From a virus: DNA of 21,377 bases. The DNA is taken from IMG/VR virus record IMGVR_UViG_3300030061_004300, positions 2,859 to 24,235 of that record; one strand, given 5' to 3'. The translations under genes were made by a program, and so were the position numbers. Shown one piece after another: positions 5,601 through 15,000 of this stretch. Numbering within the stretch: the first letter of the stretch is position 1; each line of letters opens with the position of its first letter. The notes beneath the pieces were generated by a model that was not told the origin of the DNA, searched no databases, and was given only the letters and a program-made list of their open reading frames with translations.

Positions 5601-8258
5601 AAAAATTCTACTTTAAATAAATGGGAAAAATTTAAGTATACTTTTAATTTAACTAAGGATATGACTATAGATGATTATCCACAAAATGTTGAAAGTTTAA
5701 ATTTCATAATACAAACAAGTGGTAAAGATGCATTAAATGGATTTAGAGGTAATGTTTTAATTGACAATATTGAGGTTAAAGAATCTTATAAATTTACTCC
5801 TGATGTTGATGTTAGAAAGAAAAAAGGACCAAATGATTATGGAGTGGGTGATTTAACAAAATATTATGATAAAGATTTACAACCTGATGAGTACAATGAT
5901 ACAACTGCTCCATTGGAAGTACAATTTTATTTTTATCCAAGATATTATCTAAATGAGGTATTTGAAGAAAAGCCAATAATATATAATGATTTTAGACAAG
6001 GTATGTTTTATCTCTATGATGTGGATTGGGGTGATGCATCTCCAAAAGAATTTACTTCTAAACCTGAACTACTTGGTGAAAATATTTCCGTGTATCATAC
6101 ATATCAAACGAGTGGTATTTTTGAAATTACGGGTACGATGATTAGAATGAAACCCAATAAAAACTATGAACCACTTGGTATTATTCATCACGAAAAATTT
6201 AAATTATTTATAAATGTAAATGAAGGATTGGATGAAGATTTTCTATATTTTGGTACAGAGGGTTCTTCATTTATACCTTATAAAAATACATTACCTGTAG
6301 TTGGTGGTTTTGGAGAAAATAGTCTTTATTATAAATCAATTAAAAGACAACTCGGTATATTGACAAATGAATCAAGTATTAGAACTCAATTTAAAAGTAT
6401 AGGTGATGAGTTAAAAACTGAAATTGCATTAGATAAAATGGATTCATCATTTAGTAATGATTTTAATGTATTGAATGAATATAAAAAACAAAGATTTATT
6501 GAAATAGAATCAACAGACGAGATTCAACCTTTTGAAACTTTTTATGCAGATGAAAATTTAGTCGATTTCCCTTTTGATGGTGATGGTGACCAGCTTGTAA
6601 ACGCACCATACTTTGCAACTTTACCATTCCCACAATATGTTGAAGAACTTGATATAGATGATAATGGATTTTATTCATACTTACCATCTACTGATGAAGA
6701 CCCTTCCAATACTTGGGGAAGTAACTATTATAGACACGATATTGAACTAATGTTAACAGTATTAGCATATGGTATTTCTATTGGACAATCTGGCATAGAG
6801 GGTGAATCATCGTGGGGTTATGTTTATCCTGATTATGCTCGTAGTTGGAATAGTCTTTCAGATATACCTACCTTTAGTACCGAACCTATAATTGAAACAA
6901 TTTACAATGGTGTAAAAACAAATTCAGAAGAACTTGGAAAAACAATTGGTGATGTTGATATAACAAATATTAGATATTTTGATAAACCAAAACAAATGTA
7001 TGAAATGTTAGGATATGAAACTTTTATTGAACCTGAAATTCCAATACCAGAATATAATTCTGGTGTGATGCCAGTACCAACATTAGAAAATGGTTCAGAT
7101 GTATGGGATTATGGTGATGATTTAATTTTACAATACCATTTACAAACGGTATATACAGCTATGGTTACGGGTGGTTATGGTAATAATGGTAAAGGTGAAC
7201 CATTTTCAACAACCATATCAGGACTTTATGACCATCATACTGATTGTGATAGCTTTACAACTTGTAACGCCTTAATGGATGTTATGGATTTATCTCAATG
7301 GTATAGATTAAAATTTACTTATATGGGTACTGAAAATTATCCTGATGGTAATGAAGACCCTATAGGTGCTGTAAGTATTAACTTAAAGATGGGAGATGGT
7401 GATAGTTCTCCAGGCCGATACCATAGAATCCATGCTGATGATTGGGATAGACAAAGTGGTCCTGATGGTGCACCACCATCACCTTATTTTGGAACACAAA
7501 TACAATACCAACCTCAATTAAATAGTTCTGGAGTAAAATTAGGAATTTTGAATAGTTCAGGTAATGAAGAAAGTGATTTCTTTGAAAAAGCTAATTGTGT
7601 CGCTGCAGATCATGACAATCCATATGATTATTCAAAGGAATGTACGGTTTGGGTTTTATTAATGCCTACTGATGATGGAGTTGCACCAACAAAACATACA
7701 ATTACTTTTCATAATGGTCGTAGGAATAATAGTACGAAATGGAACAGAATAAGTTTAGACAGAGCAGATTTAATTCCTGCAGAAGAAATAGCACCATTAA
7801 CAGAAGTTAGTAATCCATCTTCATTAAATTATTGGAAAAACATCATACCTAAAGATTATTCTATATTTAATAGAGGTGGTATAGCACAAGATAATGATGG
7901 AAATTATTTTTTAAATGATTTAACTAACGAACAAAATTGGTTAGATAATTATTATTATCCCGTATTACCAAAATATGGTACTGATGGTAAATTTTTAGAT
8001 GATGAATATCCAAATGGAAACCAACCCTTTCCATTAAATGGTCCAATAACTGATGAGAATTATTATGATAGTAGTTTAAAAATATCAATAACAACAGATA
8101 ATGCAGATGTAAATGTTTTAAATGATAAAAGTGGTAACAACAATTATGGATTTAATTTTTCTGATTATAAACCTCAATTTAATGAAGAAACTTTAAAACC
8201 ACAAAAAGTTAAATCAATTGGCAACACACGAACAAGTAAATTCAAAGGGGCGTTTTAA
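2667..8258 (+). CDS. Giant mosaic virion protein: jelly-roll, PKD-like and EF-hand-like modules
   Basis: 1863 residues, start ATG five bases after the previous stop, AAGGT upstream. Visible architecture: a carbohydrate-binding-type jelly roll at ~84-272 (LIQNGTFE at its start, ISNVSVSL closing it); an Asp-rich linker ~275-285; a strand-rich region with EISFWMKT at ~582; a second jelly roll ~915-1030 (WEKFKYTFNL, VLIDNIEVKE); a PKD-like domain ~1082-1160 (DVDWGDASP, then YHTYQTSGIFEITGT); an IGG-type segment ~1208 (VVGGFGENSLYYKSI); an EF-hand/dockerin-like cassette ~1313-1360; an ELGKTIGDVDITNIRYF segment ~1415-1435; a C-terminal region ending NDKSGNNNYGFNFSDYK...GAF. The last four have counterparts in the next gene. 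No signal peptide or membrane segment is seen. Probably a tail fibre or baseplate-appendage protein acting in host attachment. The domain calls are by eye and the role is inferred. The stop overlaps the next start (TAATG). Confidence 0.85.
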   Translation: MADFSVEKQGDFGVPNVNIEQTLNNKFDPYSGIDLRDDVIQDNVCLRLEAMRPPEGTKNQNGDEYNFIAPHLDGVFRPLDENYTNLIQNGTFETNQGYQVQTAPFWVNGTQNNSILRFSENGAVFEASQHQFSTNISTDFSTGNSLNVSDGYLFQDLENKLQKNKTYKVKFDIKYLASSIPQDYYGAPEGEDRIYFKLGGDREDSTNIVYLPDNISQFETFTVERTIQVGNLKLIENNQSYNSKIGLMFYAGENDETGIFEPCFAGSISNVSVSLTDDDDGDDDTNVTEDEFTCDSIINTFDLTNIFEVRAVCADNSTVLMGNSGLDEDIEGEDWFFKSGIDACLYNMKENSSFYFDSDNDKRQALGLFNPVDINVSNDNFTDNIPKLLFQQLVKENFINNGSGRLVKINEYETDSLSTDSYKPAGDWTYLGLDGVGINLTDENDPSESRIEQYVQAGFDFSPDPNDSYGYAGWAPYIFPFEVTQNLDWNAQHDTIYGEDATKPIKIPFDWAQWIKSDECYSYGKCLNFSTVGHNYDSETLNDATNGLLGVVDGNEYRTLNQAQRIYNQYTVTSGEETLNPYSSLEISFWMKTIEAKNDNLENTYVESGIQRQLDLNRPYKTQFNLNPIEDDGEGVDVDVVTVNVNQILLSNLGGTPEGTDTEPVGQYPSTGFALGSRYGMLGFTDIKSAVDYLGIDYGNYALTNIKLKKLYATGDLDGVHHNFDGYHNHEFIEKISIGGQTSAGAMHNNDGSYLRRFDENFISPTYYPSTFYNNSNLDSEFLYNNTDYSYNSNNGNPSDYVLLSFQNNPLMNYFDEGLADLGGSEEPLEIWNDQLGFGTHPNGDSGHEFQIRNSNEDFRPTTSNTDILSSTGIDLGVYYNNADASTVGEFTYKFGTYMQFQNGVSGDEGIGNLSGEKLIVYADLELEFTEIEQEDAPLPAFGAFFTEKNYLSQQGSYNSLSSNGNTSVQSFGSINRFKNSTLNKWEKFKYTFNLTKDMTIDDYPQNVESLNFIIQTSGKDALNGFRGNVLIDNIEVKESYKFTPDVDVRKKKGPNDYGVGDLTKYYDKDLQPDEYNDTTAPLEVQFYFYPRYYLNEVFEEKPIIYNDFRQGMFYLYDVDWGDASPKEFTSKPELLGENISVYHTYQTSGIFEITGTMIRMKPNKNYEPLGIIHHEKFKLFINVNEGLDEDFLYFGTEGSSFIPYKNTLPVVGGFGENSLYYKSIKRQLGILTNESSIRTQFKSIGDELKTEIALDKMDSSFSNDFNVLNEYKKQRFIEIESTDEIQPFETFYADENLVDFPFDGDGDQLVNAPYFATLPFPQYVEELDIDDNGFYSYLPSTDEDPSNTWGSNYYRHDIELMLTVLAYGISIGQSGIEGESSWGYVYPDYARSWNSLSDIPTFSTEPIIETIYNGVKTNSEELGKTIGDVDITNIRYFDKPKQMYEMLGYETFIEPEIPIPEYNSGVMPVPTLENGSDVWDYGDDLILQYHLQTVYTAMVTGGYGNNGKGEPFSTTISGLYDHHTDCDSFTTCNALMDVMDLSQWYRLKFTYMGTENYPDGNEDPIGAVSINLKMGDGDSSPGRYHRIHADDWDRQSGPDGAPPSPYFGTQIQYQPQLNSSGVKLGILNSSGNEESDFFEKANCVAADHDNPYDYSKECTVWVLLMPTDDGVAPTKHTITFHNGRRNNSTKWNRISLDRADLIPAEEIAPLTEVSNPSSLNYWKNIIPKDYSIFNRGGIAQDNDGNYFLNDLTNEQNWLDNYYYPVLPKYGTDGKFLDDEYPNGNQPFPLNGPITDENYYDSSLKISITTDNADVNVLNDKSGNNNYGFNFSDYKPQFNEETLKPQKVKSIGNTRTSKFKGAF
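6603..6752 (+). repeat. EF-hand/dockerin-like cassette, copy 1 (in 1863-aa protein)
   Basis: Encodes YFATLPFPQYVEELDIDDNG followed by a longer variable loop and then W...RHDIELML. It aligns with the copies at 10373-10530 and 12490-12650. The acidic DIDDNG loop resembles a calcium-binding EF-hand or dockerin loop, and an extra FDGDGDQL loop lies just upstream. Confidence 0.55.
8080..8255 (+). repeat. Shared C-terminal tail motif, copy in the 1863-aa protein
   Basis: Encodes ISITTDNADVNVLNDKSGNN, then FSDYKPQF, a basic stretch (KPQKVKSIGNTRTSKFK) and terminal GAF. It aligns with the end of the next protein and marks the two as related. Confidence 0.6.
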
Positions 8259-11200
8259 TGTCAAAAAAAAGATTAATAAAAAACAAACCAACTCAAGGTG
8301 ATTTAGGATTATATACTTATAAAGATGATAATCCAAGTCAAGACTATTTAGACTCTGATGGTATTGCTATTCGTTATGATAAATTTTCAAAACAAGATTT
8401 ATATTCAAATTCAATTGGTGACAATATAAATGAAGCAATTTGTGATTCAAAAATGCAAAATGCTATAAATCCTGACATCGATGCTTTAGGTTTTATAGGT
8501 GATAGTTTTATTCAAATCAATAGTATGAATATAAAAAACAGAGGTGTGAATAGTGATATTAATGATGTTTACTTTCGTATTTATATTTGTTCTGATAGAT
8601 TTTGGAGTCCGTATGGTTCAAATGGAAGTATAAAATCTCACAACACTATGAAAAGTACAAGCAATGGTTTTAGAAGATATAAATCAGGAACAACTGAACA
8701 ACCAGCTTTATTCTTTACACAAAATGGTCCTAATTATAATGAAAATGGTTCACCTGGAACTAGTTTGTTTACAGACATTAGGATTGCAGAACAATTTGAT
8801 ACAATGAATGTTTTAGGAGGTATTCCAGAAGCCAATGTTCAGAGTCCTGAGAATGCTGTTTTCATTCCAGAGTTTTCAAAAAAGTATGAACATTTCGATC
8901 CAAGATTAAGTTTATTAAAAAATGACTCAGACTATGAAGCTCCCATAATTATGGCAGGAGATTGGTCAACATTATTTCAAGAAGATCAGGAGAATCCAAT
9001 TCATATAATAATGCATATGGATGGTGATATGGATACAACCTTTGATAAAAGTAGAAATGAAACAATATCCATATGGTCTTTCAATCCATCTGAATTATTT
9101 GAATTTGATAGTCAAGGAAATATTACTGGAGGAAAATTAACAACATTGGAATGGGATAATCACGATATTGAAAAGTATTCAACTAATCAAGATTATACAG
9201 CTGCATTTACAGGAGAAGCTCTTAGTATTACGATTAACACTTTAGGTGGTGTAGAATTAAATAGTGAAGGTTATAACCCACCAACTGAATACATAGAACA
9301 AAATCCATTAGTAACACCACCCATTGTAGGTTATACAGGATTGGATATTGATGAGTTTATAACTAAAATAAATCCAAGTAGTCAAATTTTAAAATCTTCT
9401 GAAACTTATGGAGAAGAAGTTGGAGATAATGAAATTAGATACACAGCAGAATTTGCAGATTATATTCCTATTCCATATGTTGAATTAATAAATGGAGATA
9501 AAGACTTTCAAATATATTATGAAAGTATAGATGATAGATTATTGGTATCAGCTCCAAATGAGGTTAATTTAAGTTTTGATGTATCAGTTCATCCTGAACC
9601 ATATGGTAGTGATGAATTAACATTATTTCAAGATAGTAATAGTATTGAATTAATTAGTAAGTTTAATACTGATAGTTATGATTTTTATTCTGATGATGAA
9701 ATAACACCAGTTCTAAATGTAAATCAATCAGACTATATGTTTTTTGTTGTTGATTGGGATGATAGAGATAATATTTATAAAACCATAGCTGATGTTTTAT
9801 TAGACTGGCCAAGAACCAATAATGAACTTTTACAAAAAAGAAATCAAAATTTATATCATATTCAACATATTAGTAATACGGCTCAAACAGGATTTAGAAA
9901 TCCATTAAAACATAATTATAATACACCTGGAATGAAACGAATTAAAACCATTATGATTTCTCATAATTCATTGATGAGTAATCAAGGTATATTTCAATCA
10001 TTGGAAACAAATAGATGGAAATTAATAACTACAAAATTATTTGTAGATATACCATCAAATGAATTTCCAGACTTCGGTCAAGTGGGAGGTTCTGATTACA
10101 CAACACTTCCGTGGCCTTATACAACTCCAATTATTGGTGGAGTTAGTGAAGATTCAAAATATATGAAATCAATCGATGATATATTAGGTGGTGGTAATAT
10201 TGGTGATTTGGATATAATTGATGAAACATTTTTAGTTAATGCTAAAGAGAATACCGAACTTGGTAAAGCTATAGAAAAAATGGATTTAGAACAAATAAGA
10301 TTTTTTAATGCAAGTTATGATATGAACACACTTTTAGATATACCTATAAGTGATTTATCTATAACTAATGTAACTCCTGATTATTTACAAACATTACCTT
10401 TTCCATTTTGGTATGAAGAATTTGATGTAAATGCTAATGGAGTAGTATTAGATGAATCTGATGTTAATATATGGGTAAATAATGGAAGACCAGATATAGC
10501 TGATTGGATTACAAGAAATATTGATGGAGATTCACTTGAGGAAAGTGAATTTAATTTACCACTAAATCAACCATATCCACCACTTCCATATCCTGTTGTG
10601 AATACAATAATGATGAGTACACAAGATGAGTTAATGTCACCTATGATACCCACATATCCTATTGTGAATACAATAATAACTAATGAAGAATCTAATCAAA
10701 TTCAAGTAATTGGTAACAGTGGCGGTCCAGCTGGACCTGATTCAAGTATTTATAATCCTGATCCTGAACCATCAATAGGTGGTGGGTTTAATTGGAGTCC
10801 AGGAGGATCTGGATGGGAATGGACAAATGTAGGTGGAGATAGTGTTGATGTATATCAATGGATATATGTTGGATATTCAGATGATGATGATGATGACGTG
10901 TCACCACCACCATCAGTTTCTTATACATGTTATGATGAAAGCGCATTAAATTATAATTCAGGAGGTGATTATGCGTGTCAAAATAACAATTGTTGCATTT
11001 ATCTAAATAACTTAGTAAATGATTGGATTGAATATTTTAATACAATTCCACAATATAATTGGAATAATTATTCAACTACAGTTAACGATGAGGGATTAAG
11101 TGGATTACAACAATTACAACAATTTTTTATAGATGATTTTGCAACTCCTGCATATGTAATTATAAATTGGGCTATAGATAAATTTTATGTTTCTACACCC

Positions 11201-12076
11201 GATGAAGAAGAAGTCATTGGGTCTGGTAATTTTTTAATAATTGATGATGGTTGTGATATTCCAACCGAAGAGAATGAGGGACATATTTTTGTACAAAGTA
11301 ATGGTAGGGTTTTATATAATAATAGAACGAACTCACCCATACATGGTTTTCAATTTAGAGCTCCTGCTAGTTACAATTTACTTGGAGCAGCTGGAGGAGC
11401 TGCAGGTGATAAAAATTTTCAAATAACATATAATAATACTAATGAAGTTCTCGCTTTTACACTTGATGGAAATGCAATTTCAGAACAATGTGGGACACTA
11501 TTAATTTTAGATTTAATGCCAGATTGGGAAGATGAAGCAGACAATCAGTCAAATTTATATAATATGGTTTTTTCTGATTTTAATTCTAATCCAATTCCTA
11601 TGAATTATTTTTATTGGAATGTAGGTTGTACAGATGAATATGCAAACAATTATGATAATAATGCTAATTGGGAAGATAATAGTCAATGTACATATGATAA
11701 TCTTGTGATAGTTTCAGATTTTTATAATTTTGAACAAATAGAAAGATATGCTTATCTAAATCCATATAATGCATTAAATGACGATGGAACTAATTATTGG
11801 GATGGTGAATCACTAATAACAACTTTTTCAGAGGAAAGTTCAGTCGGACAGATATTTATAGATGATAATTCAGATAATGTTCTGAAAGAAAATTGTAAGT
11901 TAGAATTAAATTTAGGAAGTATAAGTGATAGAGCAATTACAGATTCAGGTGGTAATTCCAATAAGGGTTTGTTAATTGGGGATTATAAAATTAAAAAAAC
12001 ACAAAAGAATGAACCGATGAGAAGAGACTCTTACATCAGAATACCACAAAAAGGTAAAGAAAATGGAGCGTTATAG
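8258..12076 (+). CDS. Giant mosaic virion protein with PKD-like, dockerin-like and cohesin-like modules
   Basis: 1272 residues; the ATG overlaps the preceding TAA, with AAGGGG 7 bases upstream, so translation is probably coupled. The N-terminal ~490 residues are not recognised. Then come a degenerate PKD-like segment (~493-570, FFVVDWDD and KHNYNTPG), an IGG segment (PIIGGVSEDSKYMKSI, ~624), ELGKAIEKMDLEQIRFF (~667), and an EF-hand/dockerin-like cassette (~706-757, DVNANGVVLDESD, GRPDI). Next are a Gly/Pro-rich linker with a six-Asp run (~825-885), a cysteine motif (CYDESALNYN, ~889), a cohesin-like domain (~1007-1120), a second cysteine motif (GCTDEYANNYD, ~1122) and a C-terminal tail (DSGGNSNKGLLIGDYK...GAL) related to that of the preceding protein. 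It looks like a paralogue of that protein with extra modules inserted. Inferred role: receptor-binding or appendage-assembly component. Confidence 0.84.
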   Translation: MSKKRLIKNKPTQGDLGLYTYKDDNPSQDYLDSDGIAIRYDKFSKQDLYSNSIGDNINEAICDSKMQNAINPDIDALGFIGDSFIQINSMNIKNRGVNSDINDVYFRIYICSDRFWSPYGSNGSIKSHNTMKSTSNGFRRYKSGTTEQPALFFTQNGPNYNENGSPGTSLFTDIRIAEQFDTMNVLGGIPEANVQSPENAVFIPEFSKKYEHFDPRLSLLKNDSDYEAPIIMAGDWSTLFQEDQENPIHIIMHMDGDMDTTFDKSRNETISIWSFNPSELFEFDSQGNITGGKLTTLEWDNHDIEKYSTNQDYTAAFTGEALSITINTLGGVELNSEGYNPPTEYIEQNPLVTPPIVGYTGLDIDEFITKINPSSQILKSSETYGEEVGDNEIRYTAEFADYIPIPYVELINGDKDFQIYYESIDDRLLVSAPNEVNLSFDVSVHPEPYGSDELTLFQDSNSIELISKFNTDSYDFYSDDEITPVLNVNQSDYMFFVVDWDDRDNIYKTIADVLLDWPRTNNELLQKRNQNLYHIQHISNTAQTGFRNPLKHNYNTPGMKRIKTIMISHNSLMSNQGIFQSLETNRWKLITTKLFVDIPSNEFPDFGQVGGSDYTTLPWPYTTPIIGGVSEDSKYMKSIDDILGGGNIGDLDIIDETFLVNAKENTELGKAIEKMDLEQIRFFNASYDMNTLLDIPISDLSITNVTPDYLQTLPFPFWYEEFDVNANGVVLDESDVNIWVNNGRPDIADWITRNIDGDSLEESEFNLPLNQPYPPLPYPVVNTIMMSTQDELMSPMIPTYPIVNTIITNEESNQIQVIGNSGGPAGPDSSIYNPDPEPSIGGGFNWSPGGSGWEWTNVGGDSVDVYQWIYVGYSDDDDDDVSPPPSVSYTCYDESALNYNSGGDYACQNNNCCIYLNNLVNDWIEYFNTIPQYNWNNYSTTVNDEGLSGLQQLQQFFIDDFATPAYVIINWAIDKFYVSTPDEEEVIGSGNFLIIDDGCDIPTEENEGHIFVQSNGRVLYNNRTNSPIHGFQFRAPASYNLLGAAGGAAGDKNFQITYNNTNEVLAFTLDGNAISEQCGTLLILDLMPDWEDEADNQSNLYNMVFSDFNSNPIPMNYFYWNVGCTDEYANNYDNNANWEDNSQCTYDNLVIVSDFYNFEQIERYAYLNPYNALNDDGTNYWDGESLITTFSEESSVGQIFIDDNSDNVLKENCKLELNLGSISDRAITDSGGNSNKGLLIGDYKIKKTQKNEPMRRDSYIRIPQKGKENGAL
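10373..10530 (+). repeat. EF-hand/dockerin-like cassette, copy 2 (in 1272-aa protein)
   Basis: Encodes YLQTLPFPFWYEEFDVNANG, then VVLDESDVNIW and GRPDIADWI. The DVNANGVVLDESD pattern is that of dockerin type I/EF-hand loops (DxNxDGxVxxxD). This is the most canonical of the three copies. Confidence 0.6.
10587..10677 (+). repeat. Direct repeat of 25 bp, 66-bp period, within coding sequence
   Basis: The 25-mer at 10587-10611 recurs at 10653-10677 with one mismatch (G10595 against A10661). The spacing of 66 bases is in frame and gives the peptides YPVVNTI and YPIVNTI 22 residues apart, in a linker just after the dockerin-like cassette. It looks like a small tandem duplication. Confidence 0.7.
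10921..11002 (+). repeat. Cysteine motif of GCTDxxAxNY type, copy 1
   Basis: Encodes TCYDESALNYNSGGDYACQ followed by NNNCCIY. This follows the GCTDxxAxNYxxxAxxDDGSCxY pattern common in secreted proteins of marine Bacteroidetes and some marine phages. The Gly before the first Cys and the DDGSC core are degenerate. Confidence 0.55.
11279..11620 (+). other. Cohesin-like beta domain in the 1272-aa protein
   Basis: Residues ~1007-1120 run GHIFVQSNGRVLY, IHGFQF, an AAGGAAGD turn, VLAFTLDGNAI, CGTLLILDL and MVFSDFNSNPIPM. This order (I-x-GFQF, then VL-x-F-x-L-x-G, then CGTL, then VFSD) is the pattern of a cohesin-like domain that in Bacteroidetes secreted proteins often precedes the GCTD cysteine motif, as it does here. 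The call is from pattern memory; no alignment was possible. Confidence 0.45.
11621..11697 (+). repeat. Cysteine motif of GCTDxxAxNY type, copy 2
   Basis: Encodes GCTDEYANNYDNNANWEDNS followed by QCTYDN, a near-canonical copy directly after the cohesin-like domain. The two cysteines probably form a local disulphide or the motif binds a metal; that is inference. Confidence 0.65.
11896..12073 (+). repeat. Shared C-terminal tail motif, copy in the 1272-aa protein
   Basis: Encodes LELNLGSISDRAITDSGGNS, then LLIGDYKIKKTQ, a basic stretch and terminal NGAL. The common skeleton is D-x-SGN-x-N-x-G, DYK, basic residues, GA-[FL]. Confidence 0.6.
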
Positions 12077-12078
12077 TC

Positions 12079-15000
12079 ATGCCTAATTTAGAATATGATT
12101 TTAATAATGATGATTATCAATTAATTACTGATGGTAATAATACTGCTCAATTAACATCTGATGATTATGTTAGAATTACTGTTTACGAAAATTTAAGAAA
12201 CGAAATTTATCGATATATAGATTCAGATGGAGTTAGAAAAAAAGCAGTTTTTTATTCTGCTTATGGGAAAGATGTACTTATAATTAATACAGGTGCATTT
12301 TTTAATGAACCTAAATCATCAATAAAAACACTTGGTATGGGTTTAAATGATTTTCCAATATATACAACTGAAAACGAAGATGGAACTAAAAGTCATTATT
12401 TAAAACCAAATGAATTGTTTAATCAAAAACAATTTCCAGAAGGTAATTATAGTATTAAAGTTGACTTTTTAAAACAACTTAATCCACTAAATGTTACAAC
12501 AGCATATCTTTCAACTTTACCATATCCTAATTATTTTGAAGAAGCTGATGTTAATTCAGATACTAATTTAAATAATCAAGACCAACAAATTTGGAGTCTA
12601 CAAGGAAGACCTGATATATCATCTGCAGTAATTCAACATATGCAAGGAGGTGAACAATTTCCTAATTATGCTGGAGAAGGACAAGAACCAAAAACATCTG
12701 AATATTATTATAATCCAAATTTTGTTGGATATACTTATGATTTTATTATTAAAGAAATTTCAACTTCAAGAAAAGAAATTCGTTTAAAATTATTAAATGA
12801 TAATCTTATAAAAGACAGTCAAGTTAGTAAAGATATTGAAAATATATTAACTTCTTTTGGTGAAACTTTTGATTTTAAACATGTATTGAATGTTGGTGAT
12901 GGTAATCATATACCAATTACTAATTTTCATTTTGATGCAGTAAGTGATGGAAAAGATAATCAATCAGTAATTTTAAGATTATATAAACCACTTCCATTAT
13001 CTATAAATAATTTAAAATTAGTTTCAATTGAAAGAGAAGTATTTGTAACTCAAACCACAGATATATATTACTTTTCGGAAATAGAATCAACCCAAAGAGG
13101 TTTAGGTTTAAATCCTGATCAAACAGAAAATTGGATAAATGCTGACGAGGGTAATTCTGATTTTCAAAATTATAATGAATTAACACAATCTTTAACAGAT
13201 ATTAGTTTAAAACAATTTACTTCAGGTAGTTCTCATTATTATCCAAATTTAAATACAAATTTTAATGAGTTTGAAAATCATACATTTTTTGGTTCTGCTA
13301 AAAGAAAATTAGAAAATTTTAAAAACAAAGTAGAAACAATACAATCTTATCATTCTCAAATAGAGGATTCATTAAGTACAGATACTACAATGACTGGAGA
13401 TTCATTACAAGTAAAAAAATTAAGAAAAGATTTATTCAATAAAATAGACGAAGAAATAAATTCATTTACACCATATGAAAGATTTTTATATTTTGATGGT
13501 CAAAGTGAATCAACTGCAAGTGCTCCAGGTGTTGGTAGAAATTATGCTGATACAATAGCCACACAGACGAGTTATACTCAAGGTTCACTTATACATAACG
13601 ATGGTATAACATTAGGACCAAGTGAAGGTTTTAGTGAAGTTTATAAACATTCATCAGAAAAACCATCAGGAAATAATTCACAAGATGTAGGTTTATTTAA
13701 AAGAAAATATTATGTTAGTGATAAACCATTTTTTAATTATGATAAATCAATTTATTTATCTTTTTTAATGAAAGCTGATAGTGGTAGTGCATTAACATTT
13801 ACAAATTCACAAAAAGATTATGGTGTACATAGAGGTGAACAAGTTAACTTTCCAGAAAAGTCAAAATTTAAAGAAAACTTATTAAATCCACCAAGAACAA
13901 GTAGTGTGTATCAGAGATATATTTTTCATACATCACACTCTCATTTTATTCCAGCTGCATCGGTTAACAATGATTTACACAATATAGGTAATTTTACAGC
14001 TGCATCAACGGAATTTCACATATTAAGTCAATCAAAATCTGGTTCAAAACCTATAAAAGATTCAGGTGGTCACTATCAAAGTTATTCAACTGTTACAACA
14101 AGTAGTGGTATACCATTTAAAGGTTCAATAATGCCAAGTGGTGAATTATTTGATATTGGTTTTACTAATCAATCATCAGCAAGTCTATCAGGTTATTGGA
14201 ATATTGATAATGTTGCATCAGCTAGTTCTTTAGTTATTTCCAATGCTATAAATAGTTCTGGAACAACAAATGGTAATGCTACATTAGTATCGGGTGTTAC
14301 TGCTTCAGCTGGTGTACAAGTTCATAATAGACAATATGGTTCATCATATTTTTTTACAAGTGAAAGTAGTGCTAGAGTTGCATTTGAAACTGCAACAAAT
14401 TATAATTTTAATAGAGATAATAATTTTTCATTATCCATATGGGCAAAAAGATTTCATAAAAATACAGGTTCAGCAGACTCATCAGATGGTAATGTACAAG
14501 CAATTTTTACTAGAGGTGGTGGAAATCAATCATATGGAATAGATTATTATTTCCCTGCTAATCAGATTAGAGCTGGTGTGAGAGGTAATGCTTCACAATT
14601 TAATGCTACATTTAATACAACAGATGATTTGTTAAAATGGAATCATATTGTATTTACATATACAAGTGGTTCATCAACTGGTATAAAACTTTATGTTAAT
14701 GGTGAACTAAAAAGTAGTACAACTACAACAGGTGCTAGTTATCAGATAACTGGTTCTAGTCATTTTTCACATTCAGCCGCTGCAGCAGAACCTGAGTTGT
14801 TAAGTATAGGTGCTAATGATACATTGGGTGGAACATCAAGGTATTATAATGGATTCTTACAGTATCCAAGAGTTTATAATAGAGCTATACCTGCGGATGA
14901 GGTTAAACAATTATATTTAACACCTGATGGAAAAACTGAAACAAGAATTACAGATGTAAAAGTAACATTTAAAAATCCAACTAATGCTAAACCATTTAGT

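Follow-up and report, generated by a model that had tools for sequence, protein, structure and literature searches.

We analysed a stretch of viral DNA of 21,377 nucleotides (the window), which comprises bases 2859-24235 of a 24,618-base virus fragment from IMG/VR (IMGVR_UViG_3300030061_004300) and holds nine large open reading frames (ORFs), on the plus strand throughout. Our subject is P4 (8258..12076, plus strand), a 1272-residue virion protein of this marine phage, assigned from its ORF, from blastp and from its wedge-gene context, and in particular the insert that it bears. Comparison by blastp with seven IMG/VR relatives delimited two conserved cores, residues 1-~700 and ~1178-1272, and found no counterpart for residues ~770-1152 (10565..11713, plus strand); direct searches with the whole protein gave no match in cultured phages, IMG/VR or the PDB. 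The insert, particular to this phage, consists of an Asp/Gly linker, a first cysteine motif (CYDESALNYNSGGDYACQNNNCCIY; residues 891-915, 10928..11002, plus strand), a helical segment, a cohesin-like domain (residues 1004-1122, 11267..11623, plus strand) and a second cysteine motif (GCTDEYANNYDNNANWEDNSQCTY, GCTDEYANNYD...CTY; residues 1123-1146, 11624..11695, plus strand). Ahead of it lies a cassette with a dockerin-like loop (DVNANGVVLDESD; residues 708-753, 10379..10516, plus strand). An earlier note, made by a model from the letters alone, had listed loop, linker, cysteine motif, cohesin-like domain and second GCTDxxAxNYD motif in this order; we confirmed the series, with the qualification that the first cysteine motif is degenerate.

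Two conserved motifs of P4, LEQxRYF and ESSVGQIF, stand 509 residues apart in the window and 39-440 residues apart in the relatives, and in other relatives the site is occupied by different sequence. Since conserved motifs flank a span of such different length, the alignments indicate that this part of P4 is a hypervariable insertion site. The third-position GC content of the insert (0.131, compared with 0.122-0.179 for the rest of the phage) is phage-like and the reading frame is unbroken, which makes a chimeric contig unlikely; an assembly chimera was ruled out on the same grounds.

The cohesin-like domain, searched by itself, had no match in phages or viral contigs. Its cellular relatives were retrieved with a bait made of a marine consensus and the window sequence; all later work rests on the sequences retrieved. 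The bait returned three relatives, namely proteins from a Flavobacteriales metagenome-assembled genome (MAG), from Marinimicrobia and from Planctomycetota. The best match of the resulting four-sequence profile to a solved structure (177,635 sequences) was cohesin 5n5p (E = 0.0043), aligned over nearly the full length, and a 28-sequence profile again placed 5n5p first (E = 0.018). Of these 28 aligned relatives, two matched the Pfam family Cohesin (PF00963; best E = 3.3e-5), and the profile retrieves hundreds of cellular relatives. AlphaFold2, run on P4 residues 1004-1150 with 27 relatives, predicted a nine-strand beta sandwich with a mean predicted local distance difference test score (pLDDT) of 80 and a core of ~95. 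In a Foldseek search of the PDB with this model, cohesins ranked 1-5 (5n5p, E = 2.6e-5; Archaeoglobus 2xdh; 6kgc; 2jh2), at a template modelling (TM) score of ~0.5 for a query that includes a disordered tail. According to the model, P4 residues 1004-1122 thus have the nine-strand jelly-roll fold of cohesins, as the earlier note had proposed for residues ~1000-1125. The hallmarks GFQF, GGAAGD and VLAFTLDG are retained together with the cysteine motif despite strong divergence. Among the 12 related phage contigs the domain was not found in any; at least one further phage-assigned protein nonetheless has this fold, since BFVD gave as top structural match a predicted protein of an uncultured Caudovirales phage that carries a type IX secretion system (T9SS) sorting domain (A0A6J5M064, E = 9.1e-5).

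In cells, the domain is concentrated in one order of Ca. Neomarinimicrobiota (labelled Fidelibacterota in the domain tree), where 30 of 41 genomes carry it, with up to 47 copies per genome and in frames that reach 3,967 codons. Of these 41 genomes, 33 contain Dockerin_1, in up to 109 copies, and the counts of the two domains are correlated (Spearman 0.82, a descriptive value for non-independent samples). This Marinimicrobia cohesin-dockerin repertoire is large and apparently undescribed. In these genomes, which measure 1-3 Mb, GCTDxxAxNYD motifs often stand in giant proteins alongside cohesin-like or Dockerin_1 domains. The domain is carried by 6 of 395 Bacteroidota genomes, and by 3 of 114 genomes of the family to which the Flavobacteriales MAG belongs. 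The protein of that MAG combines an apparent signal peptide, the cohesin-like domain, GCTDINACNYD and Dockerin_1, and the order of domain followed by GCTD motif recurs in secreted proteins of Marinimicrobia. In a tree of 50 domain copies, the phage copy falls, on a long branch, within a supported clade of eight copies (98/97) otherwise made up of copies from the Marinimicrobia order and one from Flavobacteriales. The resemblance to secreted proteins of marine Bacteroidetes put forward in the earlier note is therefore real in the case of the Flavobacteriales protein, but the main holders are Marinimicrobia; genome counts and tree both favour a Marinimicrobia-type source, and a mainly Bacteroidetes origin was rejected.

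On the same contig, just upstream of the window, lie two baseplate wedge genes, one gp25-like (phrog_261, E = 2e-19; Pfam GPW_gp25) and one gp6-like (phrog_219, E = 3.6e-25). The gene order gp25 - gp6 - P1 - P5 - P6 - P7 also occurs in immuto, a phage of Flavobacterium, in Mel-JY01, a phage of Microcystis, and on a phage contig from a Marinimicrobia MAG. Because P4 lies downstream of the wedge genes in a cluster of this shared order, it is by gene position a tail/baseplate-region protein, located in a baseplate gene cluster as expected of a myovirus tail or baseplate protein, its exact place in the virion being presumptive. It is preceded by P3 (2667..8258, plus strand; ORF, blastp), an 1863-residue virion protein that has a core segment in common with P4, and followed by P5 (12079..17964, plus strand; ORF, domain match), a 1961-residue virion protein with a Laminin_G_3 domain. 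Relatives of P5 occur on seven IMG/VR contigs with the same neighbours (47-53% best-segment identity), and proteins neighbouring P4 give LamG and weak carbohydrate-binding module (CBM) matches. The common core spans residues ~1179-1353 of P3 and ~593-742 of P4 in blastp, which suggests an old duplication, and the C-terminal tails of the two proteins look alike by eye. Further downstream, P7 (18799-19917) and P8 (19927-20805) each match several tandem Mel-JY01 genes, and their C termini look related.

The loop ahead of the insert belongs to a cassette of ~45 residues with the consensus P..YFEEFD.N.DG.[ILV]...D...W...GRPDI. Using an iterated profile, we found ~25 copies across 13 related phage contigs (including the window; duplicates removed), at sites that vary within four adjacent virion proteins, P2-P5. 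The earlier note's observation that the two giant neighbours also carry the loop holds in both cases: one copy lies in P3 (residues 1314-1364, 6606..6758, plus strand; E = 3.5e-15) and one in P5 (residues 142-185, 12502..12633, plus strand; E = 2.1e-18), the latter at a blastp gap in the P5 of most relatives. This P5 segment is present in the window and one relative (L007) and missing from five others (L004, L005, L008-L010). Elsewhere, cassettes stand in adjacent pairs (P5 of L036, P3 of L042) or twice in a single P4 (L010 and L038), and one lies in P2 of L040 (2213-4600), inside a ~250-residue segment missing from other P2 proteins.

The loop follows the pattern DxNxDGxxxxxD and is followed by a predicted helix, as in dockerins, across the family. 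Among 19 copies, D1 is conserved in 18, D/N3 in 13, D/N5 in 14, a hydrophobic residue at position 8 in all 19 and D12 in 18; outside the loop, P, W, R and D are invariant and I is kept in 18. In the PDB, the cassette profile matches dockerins best (2y3n_B, E = 1.8e-5 with 8 rows and 3.4e-3 with 19 rows), followed by EF-hand proteins and more dockerins, although the alignment is mostly confined to the loop. Pfam EF-hand_1 matches 7 of the 19 copies weakly (best 6e-4) and Dockerin_1 6 of 19, also weakly. For the P4 cassette, AlphaFold2 predicted a short helix-loop-helix, an alpha-helical mini-domain with a pLDDT of 84-89, in an otherwise poor model with which Foldseek returned no match. Each cassette has a single loop where type I dockerins have two tandem calcium repeats of ~22 residues. 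In the window, the P4 loop is one residue longer than EF-hand spacing, the P3 loop has a six-residue insertion and the P5 loop is normally spaced with T in place of G6. Judged by its residues, the cassette is an EF-hand/dockerin-type loop unit and no two-repeat dockerin, so that the type named in the earlier note stands, with a single loop and irregular spacing in P4 and P3 to set against it. In a related phage, the giant virion protein P3 of L042 (2976-9359) contains an Intein/Hint domain at residues 91-253 (start CFVAGTKVK, end ILTHN|S), directly followed by a GCTDSQACNYN motif.

For the host, we considered P7. Its relatives were found in 4 of 245 Marinimicrobia genomes, with two weak matches among the four, and in 0 of 399 Flavobacteriales genomes and 0 of 395 Bacteroidota genomes, the latter two samples possibly overlapping. 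The enrichment in Marinimicrobia has a Fisher p of 0.003, or 0.055 when only the two strong matches are counted. A phage contig of 18.9 kb with the same tail synteny (L050; G136:C60) is binned with a Marinimicrobia genome in which both cohesin-like domains and dockerins are plentiful; neither the cassette nor the cohesin-like domain was detected on it. From these comparisons we infer that Marinimicrobia may be the host of this phage.

In the model that we propose, P4 belongs to the tail proteins of the baseplate region and combines a constant framework with a single hypervariable module site. In this phage the site is filled by a captured fragment (cysteine motif, cohesin-like domain, cysteine motif) that would derive from giant secreted proteins of a kind common in Marinimicrobia. 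From its position near the baseplate, the cohesin-like module would most likely meet dockerin-bearing or glycosylated host surface proteins during adsorption. The cassettes would be an older, separate element that the phage group has shuffled between P2, P3, P4 and P5; each cassette probably folds round one Ca2+ ion to form a rigid contact or linker, and they would not generally be partners of the cohesin-like module. That a captured host-type adhesion module near the baseplate contacts the host surface is a reading to which we give about an even chance. Several points weigh against it: the binding partner is hypothetical; the phage domain on its own does not reach Pfam Cohesin PF00963; cellulose-binding modules appear lower in the same Foldseek list, so that glycan binding is possible; the P7 host evidence is thin, two of its four matches being weak; its best contig, L050, carries no cassettes, is distantly related and could be misbinned; and the hosts of cultured relatives are Flavobacterium, Rhodothermus and Microcystis.

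The cellulose-binding modules, together with the LamG and weak CBM matches in the neighbours and the different sequence that other relatives carry at the P4 site, would also fit a beta sandwich that binds glycans or acts as a general adhesin, as one among many swappable receptor-binding decorations. We regard this as possible, if on the unlikely side, given that cohesins come first both by structure and by sequence profile and that the cellular relatives of the domain occur together with dockerins. A wider docking scheme, in which the virion cassettes bind large cohesin-like arrays on the surface of Marinimicrobia while the captured module binds host dockerins, so that adsorption would proceed via the docking network of the host, seems doubtful to us. 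The retained hallmarks and the phage-like codon make-up argue against a neutral or decoy passenger in a permissive loop with no role in adsorption, which the absence of the insert from all relatives found and its long tree branch would allow; we consider it quite improbable. The earlier note had imagined calcium-dependent docking of the P3, P4 and P5 cassettes into the cohesin-like domain of P4, joining the three giants in one appendage. Cassettes and domain do stand in adjacent proteins, and dockerins are the top matches of the cassette profile, but a single cohesin-like domain faces ~25 cassettes in 13 phage contigs, the cassettes are single-loop units with irregular loops in P4 and P3 of this phage, and the relatives must build the same proteins without the domain. 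Because cassettes are group-wide and the domain was found only in this phage, the former cannot generally depend on the latter, and we consider this docking very unlikely. As docking needs both modules, yet the cassette is group-wide and the domain was found once, capture into a permissive, exposed site is the explanation that we favour.

The cassette family provides a plain example of a small EF-hand-type unit that has been shifted between adjacent virion genes. The dozens of cohesin-like domains and up to ~100 dockerins found in small Marinimicrobia genomes suggest that an uncultured ocean lineage possesses a large protein-docking network, on which a phage-captured module would give a handle. 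In the full-text literature we found no phage cohesin-fold tail module and no paper naming both Marinimicrobia and dockerin, which is weak evidence as coverage of subscription journals is thin. A 'dockerin type I' BLAST match has been noted for gene 40 of Vibrio phage VvAW1 (PMC3558961), and a domain of a structural protein of E. coli phage HSE2 has been modelled on a cellulosomal carbohydrate-binding structure (PMC5967307).

Among known systems, the tail clusters of immuto and Mel-JY01 have the gp25 - gp6 - P1 - P5 - P6 - P7 order seen here but, unlike this phage, showed no P3/P4 relative, cassette or cohesin-like domain in the stretches read. The cassette resembles type I dockerins and EF-hands (PF00404, PF00036), its top PDB matches being dockerins, in having a DxNxDGx[ILV]xxxD loop followed by a helix; it differs in its one loop, its variable loop length, its invariant P, W, R and D beyond the loop and a match mostly limited to the loop. 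With cohesins (PF00963; 5n5p of Ruminococcus flavefaciens, 2xdh of Archaeoglobus), the best matches by structure and profile, the phage domain shares the predicted nine-strand beta sandwich, whereas it is short (~105 residues), below Pfam detection, phage-encoded and flanked by cysteine motifs, and its dockerin partner is putative. The secreted proteins of Marinimicrobia and Flavobacteriales differ in being cellular, often with tandem arrays of the domain in giant proteins, some ending in true two-repeat dockerins; they have the same domain and the same order of domain and GCTD motif, and it is among them that the phage copy nests in the tree.

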